Shown piece by piece: positions 9,848 to 17,055 of a stretch of 64,000 bases of DNA. Position 1 is the first letter of the stretch. Every line of letters starts with the position of its first letter. The translations under genes and the position numbers were made by a program. The notes under the pieces are model-generated. The model was not told the DNA's origin, ran no database searches, and worked only from the letters and a program-made list of their open reading frames with translations. The DNA comes from Rubeoparvulum massiliense (GTDB lineage: Bacteria; Bacillota; Bacilli; Rubeoparvulales; Rubeoparvulaceae): NCBI RefSeq assembly GCF_001049895.1, contig NZ_CVPE01000004.1, positions 62,001-126,000 of the forward strand. Reading direction: 5' to 3'.

Positions 9848-9861
9848 TGTAAGCGTTTACC
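9848..9861 (+). promoter_or_regulatory. CcpA catabolite-responsive element (cre)
   Basis: TGTAAGCGTTTACC matches the cre consensus TGWAARCGYTWNCW at 13 of 14 positions. It ends about 20 bases before the start of the symporter gene, downstream of any promoter, which is the position of a roadblock or repression site. It suggests carbon catabolite control of dicarboxylate or amino acid uptake. The remaining 9473-9847 shows no gene or clear element. Confidence 0.7.
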
Positions 9862-13919: not shown

Positions 13920-15641
13920 GTGAAGACTAGAACTTTTAGACCACAAATTACTTCGCAAGAGCTGTTACGCAAAGGAACCGACTTTCAATTTGAAGGCCGT
14001 TTTCAAGAGACGCTAGCGTATAACCATTTTAGACAAGAAGACTTTAAACGCTTAGGTGAAGTGGCAGCCTATCTAGAAGAGTCCTTTCATGAAGCGATCC
14101 AGCTACTTCACAGCCAATTCGTTGAATTAAGAACAGGAAATAATGAACCACCTTCTTTGGAGACCGTCGAAGCCTATATCCGTACATTCTTCTTCGAGGA
14201 AAGAACACAAGCCTATGTGGATAAGACGATGGTCTTCTTCAATCAGCTTCGAAAAAATAATTACCATATTGGGAAATTACTTGTCGCATTTAATCAGCTT
14301 AATTTCTTCTTCACCATTAAGCTTTTATCCAAGAAGGCTTTGAGCCCCCATACCTGCCTTCGTCTGATGGAAAGCCTCCAACGGGCCATGAACATCGAAC
14401 AGGAGGTTCTGATCGAAGTATACACCGAGAAGCTGATGGAGGATACCGCCGTAGGAATCACTTCTATTATGGAGAAAAACGCAGAGATCATGTTCATTCG
14501 AGACTTGCTCAAAAAAATGGAGGAGCAAAGTGAAGAAGCGCAGACCATCTCTGCTTCTACAGAAGAGATGACCGCTTCCATCGCTGAGGTGGCGAGTAAT
14601 GCTGTGTCTGTAGCTGAACGGACCGAGGATGCTGTTAAGAAAGCAGAACAAGGAAGAATGGTGATTACTGCCGCTCTCGATGAGATTGTATTGACGGATA
14701 AAACCTTTCAACAGATTGTTGAACACTTTGATCGCCTAAAACAAGATATTTCACGAATCCAAGATGTAGTTCAGTTAATCCATGGAATCGCTGATCAGAC
14801 CAATCTCCTTGCTCTCAATGCATCTATTGAGGCAGCAAGAGCAGGAGAACATGGGAGAGGCTTCGCTGTAGTGGCTAGTGAGGTTCGAAAATTGGCAGAG
14901 AATACGGTAGAATCTCTCAAGGAAGTGAATAAGAATGTCAATAACCTTGAGACATTTTCCCAGGAAATGTCGGAGTCCATTAACCTCACCACCAACATTA
15001 TTCAGCAAGGGGTCCATAAGGCTAGTGAAGCAGTACCCATTCTTGAAGAGATCGTTACAGATGTAGAAAGAATCAGTGTAGCGACTACAAGTACAGCTGC
15101 TTCTGCACAAGAACAGGCTGCAGCCGTAGATGATGTTGCCCAACGTATGGTGCAAATCACTGATCTATCTGAACAAGTGAAGGCGTTAGGCAATAATACT
15201 GGAGTAGCCGTACATGATCTCGGAAAATTAACCGAAGCACTACGAAACATGCTATTTTCCAAGAATATTCACCTATCCACCCGCTCCATGCTTTTATTAT
15301 CGAAGACCGATCATATCCTGTGGAAGTGGCGTATTTATAATATGCTTCTTGGCTTTGAACAAGTACGTCCAGAAGATGTACTCTCCCATAAAGAGTGTCG
15401 CTTAGGAAAATGGTACTTCGATGCAAGTACCAGCAAACGGCTAAGTACCTACGAGGATTATCAATTACTTGATGAACCTCATCATCAGGTTCATCAATAT
15501 GCGAAGCAAGCTGCTGAAGCCTACGCACGCAGGGACATGCAGGATGCAGAAAAGCAACTAGCCTTATTAGATCAGGCATCTAAGCAAGTATTGAACCATA
15601 TTGACCGCTTACTTCACCTCCTTGAACAAAGCAGAGCTTAG
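13920..15641 (+). CDS. Soluble methyl-accepting chemotaxis protein: globin-sensor-like domain, MCP signalling domain, CZB zinc-binding domain
   Basis: 573 residues with no membrane segment. The start is GTG at 13920; the overlapping ATG at 13918 would meet a stop at once, and GGAGGTGACC is well placed. Residues 30-165 resemble the protoglobin/HemAT sensor fold. The segment that should carry the proximal heme histidine reads [11 protein letters not shown], so leucine falls at that position by my alignment. Residues 200-440 are the MCP coiled coil with the hairpin tip [19 protein letters not shown]. Residues 460-560 are a CZB domain with the C-R-L-G-K-W-Y motif and spaced histidines. It probably signals redox or zinc/hypochlorite state to CheA. 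Confidence 0.88.
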
Positions 15642-15703
15642 AATAGACCCTAAGTGTGTCTAATTATGTAATATTTTTTGTCGAAATTGATAACTTTTGC
15701 TTG

Positions 15704-15717
15704 TACCCCGCGGGGTA
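15704..15717. promoter_or_regulatory. CsoR/CstR-like operator dyad
   Basis: TACCCCGCGGGGTA is a perfect 14-bp palindrome, 17 bases before the -35 box of the sulfide:quinone oxidoreductase gene. The TA-flanked C4/G4 arms resemble operators of the CsoR family, whose member CstR senses persulfide and controls sqr genes in staphylococci. The link to CstR is an inference, and no csoR-like gene is in the window. Confidence 0.55.
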
Positions 15718-15727
15718 AACGTTTACA
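15714..15727 (+). promoter_or_regulatory. cre-like palindrome overlapping the CstR-like site
   Basis: GGTAAACGTTTACA contains the perfect palindrome GTAAACGTTTAC and matches the cre consensus except at the first base. It shares four bases with the TACCCC dyad, so the two factors would compete or cooperate. Confidence 0.4.
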
Positions 15728-15733
15728 ATAGAA

Positions 15734-15762
15734 TTGACAACATTGTTACAAAGATTTAAAGA
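15734..15762 (+). promoter_or_regulatory. Probable sigma-A promoter of the sulfide:quinone oxidoreductase gene
   Basis: A consensus TTGACA lies at 15734-15739, followed after 17 bases by TAAAGA at 15757-15762, a weak -10. The coding start is about 28 bases downstream. Confidence 0.45.
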
Positions 15763-15790
15763 ATGAGAGATTACTTGGGGGAGTGATAGC

Positions 15791-16984: not shown

Positions 16985-17012
16985 TTACATATTATTATCC
17001 AATTATAATAGA

Positions 17013-17055
17013 ACACAGACTCCGCTCTACTTTAAGAGCAAGTCTGTGTTTTTTA
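17013..17055 (+). terminator. Rho-independent terminator
   Basis: ACACAGACT (17013-17021) pairs with AGTCTGTGT (17041-17049), followed by a T run to 17054. It ends the oxidoreductase transcript and overlaps the stop of the convergent radical SAM gene. Confidence 0.85.

Follow-up and report, generated by a model that had tools for sequence, protein, structure and literature searches.

The 64,000-nucleotide stretch of the Rubeoparvulum massiliense genome analyzed here (the window) contains two overlapping palindromes upstream of a gene for a sulfide:quinone oxidoreductase (sqr). The question raised by this locus is whether the two palindromes are operators, one for a CstR-type persulfide sensor and one for CcpA, as the initial annotation had suggested, so that a shared site would tie sulfide oxidation both to persulfide and to carbon state. 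We evaluated the two halves of this reading separately, using the sequence of the locus, the regulators encoded in the genome, and the recurrence of the predicted sites in this and in other genomes.

Two overlapping palindromes in the sqr promoter region

Read in the window, TACCCCGCGGGGTA and the 12-bp GTAAACGTTTAC are both perfect palindromes located before sqr, in agreement with the initial annotation, and the pair lies 65–87 bp upstream of the sqr ATG (Table 1). The overlap comprises three bases (GTA, 15715–15717) and not four as originally counted. The annotation of the downstream gene as a sulfide:quinone oxidoreductase holds and can be narrowed to type II: the product matches human SQOR structures with a phmmer E-value of about 5e-135, and both catalytic-cysteine motifs, TPIKCGGAPQK and SCPLVTGY, are aligned. 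A strong terminator hairpin lies 3′ of sqr, and the gene is thus probably monocistronic. Both palindromes are contained in the 149-bp gap that separates sqr (from 15791) from the gene directly upstream (13920–15641), which encodes a chemoreceptor with protoglobin, signalling and C-terminal CZB zinc-binding domains.

Table 1. Features of the sqr locus, in window coordinates
Feature	Position	Strand	Basis
Predicted CstR-type operator TACCCCGCGGGGTA, TACC-N6-GGTA core	15704..15717	.	Perfect palindrome; match to ScCsoR site (PMC7533328) and to sqr, cstR and rhodanese sites of other genomes
Cre-like palindrome GTAAACGTTTAC, possible CcpA site	15715..15726	.	Perfect 12-bp palindrome, one mismatch to cre core
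Candidate promoter P1: TTGTAC 15701-15706, 17-bp spacer, TACAAT 15724-15729	15701..15729	+	Read directly
Alternative promoter P2: TTGACA 15734-15739, 17-bp spacer, TAAAGA 15757-15762	15734..15762	+	Perfect -35, poor -10
sqr, type II sulfide:quinone oxidoreductase (human SQOR-like), 397 aa	15791..16984	+	phmmer, Pfam Pyr_redox_2
Intrinsic terminator hairpin after sqr	17010..17052	+	Hairpin with a U-rich run after it; fold z-score -6.6

Two candidate promoters can be drawn in this gap, neither of which is strong. P1 is missing from the promoter scan because only 8 of its 12 bases agree with the consensus. Under P1, both palindromes fill the spacer, with the left one extending into the -35 element and the right one into the -10 element; under P2, both are positioned upstream of the -35. 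A role of the promoter region at the RNA level was rejected, as its folding is no better than that of shuffled sequences.

The exact strings TACCCCGCGGGGTA and GTAAACGTTTAC are present in one copy each in the 2.84-Mb genome, where 0.001 and 0.08 copies, respectively, are expected. A palindrome alone is not rare, because the window contains five perfect ones of 14 bp; apart from the two at sqr, no perfect palindromes that overlap were found in the window, and simulated windows contain 0.05 such pairs. Since the operator class is degenerate, uniqueness of the TACCCCGCGGGGTA 14-mer is expected, and the exact 14-mer was rejected as a regulon marker, a single genome copy being uninformative. The core of TACCCCGCGGGGTA, TACC-CCGCGG-GGTA, conforms to the pattern TACC-N6-GGTA, for which about 18 matches are expected per genome. 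What singles out the sqr site is its position, because the chance of such a core is about 0.001 (roughly 0.1%) in a given 150-bp promoter region, yet here it lies upstream of a type II SQR gene.

The outer bases of the sqr site are G and A, in place of the A/T of ATACC-N6-GGTAT, and the full consensus is not reached. In a matrix built from other genomes the site scores 14.5, against a median of 20.9 for the sites of those genomes; it ranks 17th among the 49 scored cores of its own genome, and 15% of random TACC-N6-GGTA cores equal its score. The outer A/T is not strictly defining, as judged by the site of the cst-like operon described below, which also deviates at one outer base.

A CstR-type regulator and its predicted sites

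The operator reading had been made to depend on the presence of a CsoR-family gene, and the genome encodes two. One of these, at C3:146504-146761, belongs to the CsoR/DUF156 family (PF02583, E 4e-25) and can be aligned with Staphylococcus nepalensis CstR. Its product has Cys31 and Cys60, and an Asn at the position of the CsoR copper-ligand His, and is referred to here as CstR-type. The second gene, at C6:824526, encodes a protein with the CsoR histidine and is located close to copA.

We surveyed the genome for predicted sites by pattern searches and in selected stretches. The bare TACC-N6-GGTA core occurs 53 times where about 18 are expected, which with a higher reversed control amounts to only moderate enrichment; many of the 53 matches lie within genes and look like chance occurrences (gene contexts are those of the matches listed, 50 of 53). 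Because the bare core is only moderately enriched, we relied on the AT-flanked form, on position and on gene context. The AT-flanked form, ATACCHNNNNDGGTAT, is found in 10 copies where 1.3 are expected in the genome, and 8 of the copies are intergenic. The genes downstream of these eight are trxA, trxB, a thioredoxin-like gene, dsrE, a phs/psr-type operon, and genes for an HmcB-like iron-sulfur protein, a zinc-ribbon protein and an HD-domain protein, so that most intergenic copies precede thiol or sulfur genes.

Less perfect dyads are located before the CstR-type gene, osmC, a dsrE2-tusA-sqr cluster and a cst-like operon, the last containing tusA-rhodanese, rhodanese-metallohydrolase (PDO-like), tauE and dsrE genes. 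The dyad of the cst-like operon, TACCCCTATGGGTA, is placed just downstream of an ideal promoter (TTGACA-17-TATAAT), and that of the CstR-type gene, AAACCTTAAGGGGTAT, lies in the gene's own -10 region with one mismatch from the consensus. Layouts related to that at sqr are seen elsewhere: the dyads cover the spacer and -10 of dsrE and the -10 of trxA, as of the cstR-like gene, and touch the -35 of trxB. The site class that the initial annotation had proposed to look for near cst or csoR-like genes hence recurs at the CstR-type gene, at the cst-like operon and at many sulfur and thiol genes.

Three arrangements stood out in the survey. In a single cluster (L134 4279-8634; C4:290278-294633), SQR-like genes are duplicated and accompanied by those for DsrE2, TusA and paired helical proteins, and an internal TACC-N6-GGTA site precedes dsrE2. 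At the start of the gene for the HmcB-like iron-sulfur protein, two dyads are spaced 34 bp apart (L135 1981-2028; C6:433480-433527). CstR-type dyads are also present before selB, an HD-domain gene and a chemoreceptor gene (L252 5548, L248 5316 and L253 7538, respectively), either as part of the regulon or by chance.

The same dyad is associated with related genes in other genomes. The motif TACC-N6-GGTA, which was derived before it was compared with the published ATACCn6GGTAT (PMC7533328), is present within 250 bp upstream of 10 of 30 CstR-type genes of Bacilli (0.08 expected by shuffling). Upstream of other sqr genes, where its conservation had been named as a check, it is found within 300 bp in 5 of 27 cases (0.07 expected); these 27 genes are nearly all from Bacillota, and many of those without a site are operon-internal. 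Two dyads are present in the cstR promoter of Staphylococcus nepalensis and one in that of Salinicoccus, and in four other genomes most of the inspected sites are at rhodanese, DsrE, TusA, TauE, CoA-disulfide-reductase-like and cstR genes. In two distant lineages, a small FmdB-type zinc-ribbon gene carries the dyad in its promoter (L172 1580-1777 in this genome, L284 1586-1816 in another), which suggests that the zinc-ribbon protein is an unrecognized part of the persulfide response.

Judging from these sequence comparisons, we propose, with a probability of roughly 77%, that the CstR-type persulfide-sensing repressor of this genome uses TACCCCGCGGGGTA as an operator. The proposal is weakened by the situation in Bacillus licheniformis, where the CstR homologue YrkD acts on sqr through distal promoters and showed no binding to the sqr-proximal one (PMC9918477).

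CcpA and other readings of the palindromes

The CstR half of the shared-site reading is well supported by the regulator gene, the recurrence of the site and the cross-genome dyads, whereas the CcpA half is only plausible and has no support from conservation. Under dual control, the CstR-type repressor and CcpA would compete for, or jointly occupy, one promoter, and sqr would be on only at high persulfide and low preferred sugar. CcpA is encoded in the genome (TIGR01481, 470.7 bits against a cut-off of 442.35), and the cre pattern is matched 20 times (19 sites), where the reversed control gives 5 and about 5 would be expected over both strands. Furthermore, four of the six near-copies of GTAAACGTTTAC are found at gene starts, namely those of sqr, a tctC-like tricarboxylate-transporter component, rbsR and an SDF symporter, and GTAAACGTTTAC itself overlaps a candidate -10. 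On the other hand, GTAAACGTTTAC differs from the cre core TGNAARCGNWWNCA by one mismatch, the first base being G for T; it does not match the cre consensus WTGNAARCGNWWNCAW and falls outside the exact-match set. It may also have arisen incidentally where a promoter adjoins GGGGTA, and RbsR, the sole other LacI-family protein found, could bind such a site as well. GTAAACGTTTAC was not seen in the other sqr upstream regions examined, the nearest relatives compared sharing only the class, and a literature search found no link among CcpA, cre and sulfide quinone oxidoreductase. As far as the sequence goes, CcpA control through GTAAACGTTTAC is plausible, and dual control of one promoter by both regulators is a tentative reading that we hold at somewhat less than even odds.

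A separate observation concerns the SDF-family symporter, whose true start probably lies downstream of the ORF start listed for it (9702): a cre-like palindrome, GTAAGCGTTTAC, is located at window positions 9849-9860, shortly before the likely true start.

It is improbable that the palindromes are chance occurrences without a regulatory role. The number of perfect 14-bp palindromes in the window and the flanks of the sqr site, which deviate from the consensus, would fit this explanation; against it, a core of such low expectation stands before a gene class known to be under CstR control, and further sulfur genes have this core as well. Copper-responsive binding of the dyad by the genome's copper-type CsoR is very improbable: a CsoR-type gene is present, and the sites of Geobacillus CsoR and mycobacterial RicR resemble ATACCn6GGTAT (PMC7533328), but a scan of the copA/copZ/csoR region gave no TACC-N6-GGTA site, while such sites do occur at sulfur and thiol genes and, with one mismatch, at the CstR-type gene.

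A predicted persulfide regulon and its relation to known systems

For TACCCCGCGGGGTA as a CstR-type operator, we infer repressor binding, repression and the effector at sqr as follows. In the resting state, the CstR-type repressor would occupy its dyad at the sqr promoter and block RNA polymerase. Sulfide stress would raise the levels of persulfides or polysulfides, which would lead to cross-linking of Cys31 and Cys60 between neighbouring subunits; the cross-linked repressor would leave the DNA, and sqr would be expressed. The gene would be one of roughly 10–15 transcription units with a site, including the cst-like operon and those of thioredoxin and thioredoxin reductase, and the overlapping GTAAACGTTTAC may add repression by CcpA.

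Several known systems resemble this proposal in part. ScCsoR of Streptomyces coelicolor is a sulfane-sulfur-sensing repressor of the CsoR family with the binding site ATACCn6GGTAT; two cysteines sense sulfane sulfur, and pdo and rhodanese genes are controlled (PMC7533328). The site at sqr has the core of this sequence, but differs in its non-consensus outer bases and in the gene that it precedes, and it would belong to a much wider regulon. With S. aureus CstR, which is thought to control one operon directly (PMC5480029), the system shares a Cys31/Cys60 regulator and, as predicted here, sqr and tusA-rhodanese/PDO genes among the targets, and the likeness to Staphylococcus extends to the dyad, which is the same in the S. 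nepalensis cstR promoter. Unlike in S. aureus, many separate units, trxA and trxB among them, carry a predicted site, and the cst-like operon and the cstR-like gene lie apart. The sqr-pdo genes of B. licheniformis are subject to YrkD and to NreBC, the second input being a sulfide-sensing two-component system (PMC9918477). There, as predicted here, sqr is under a CstR-like repressor and a second regulator; in R. massiliense, by contrast, sqr has a dyad in its own promoter region, and CcpA is the candidate for the second input. The CcpA orthologue and a palindrome close to cre resemble Bacillus-type CcpA/cre control, with the differences that the palindrome has one mismatch to cre and that no precedent was found at sqr. 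The CstR-like TTHA1953 of Thermus was set aside as a model, its site being differently spaced (PMC10318464).

The kind of site described here is already known; what appears to be new is the breadth of the predicted regulon, with thioredoxin, thioredoxin reductase, OsmC and sulfur-respiration genes. The most inclusive proposal, a genome-wide CstR-type thiol-redox regulon (sqr, cst-like, trxA, trxB, osmC, dsrE and phs/psr) combined with a CcpA interlock at sqr through overlapping operators that would join persulfide and carbon state in an isolated lineage of Bacilli, is unlikely to hold in full. If the sites work, a persulfide sensor that is usually thought of as serving a single operon would here control thioredoxin, thioredoxin reductase and sulfur-respiration genes, and in this lineage CstR would act as a general regulator of thiol redox. 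Carbon gating of sulfide oxidation, by which electrons are passed to quinones, could then be tested in a compact setting at the sqr promoter.
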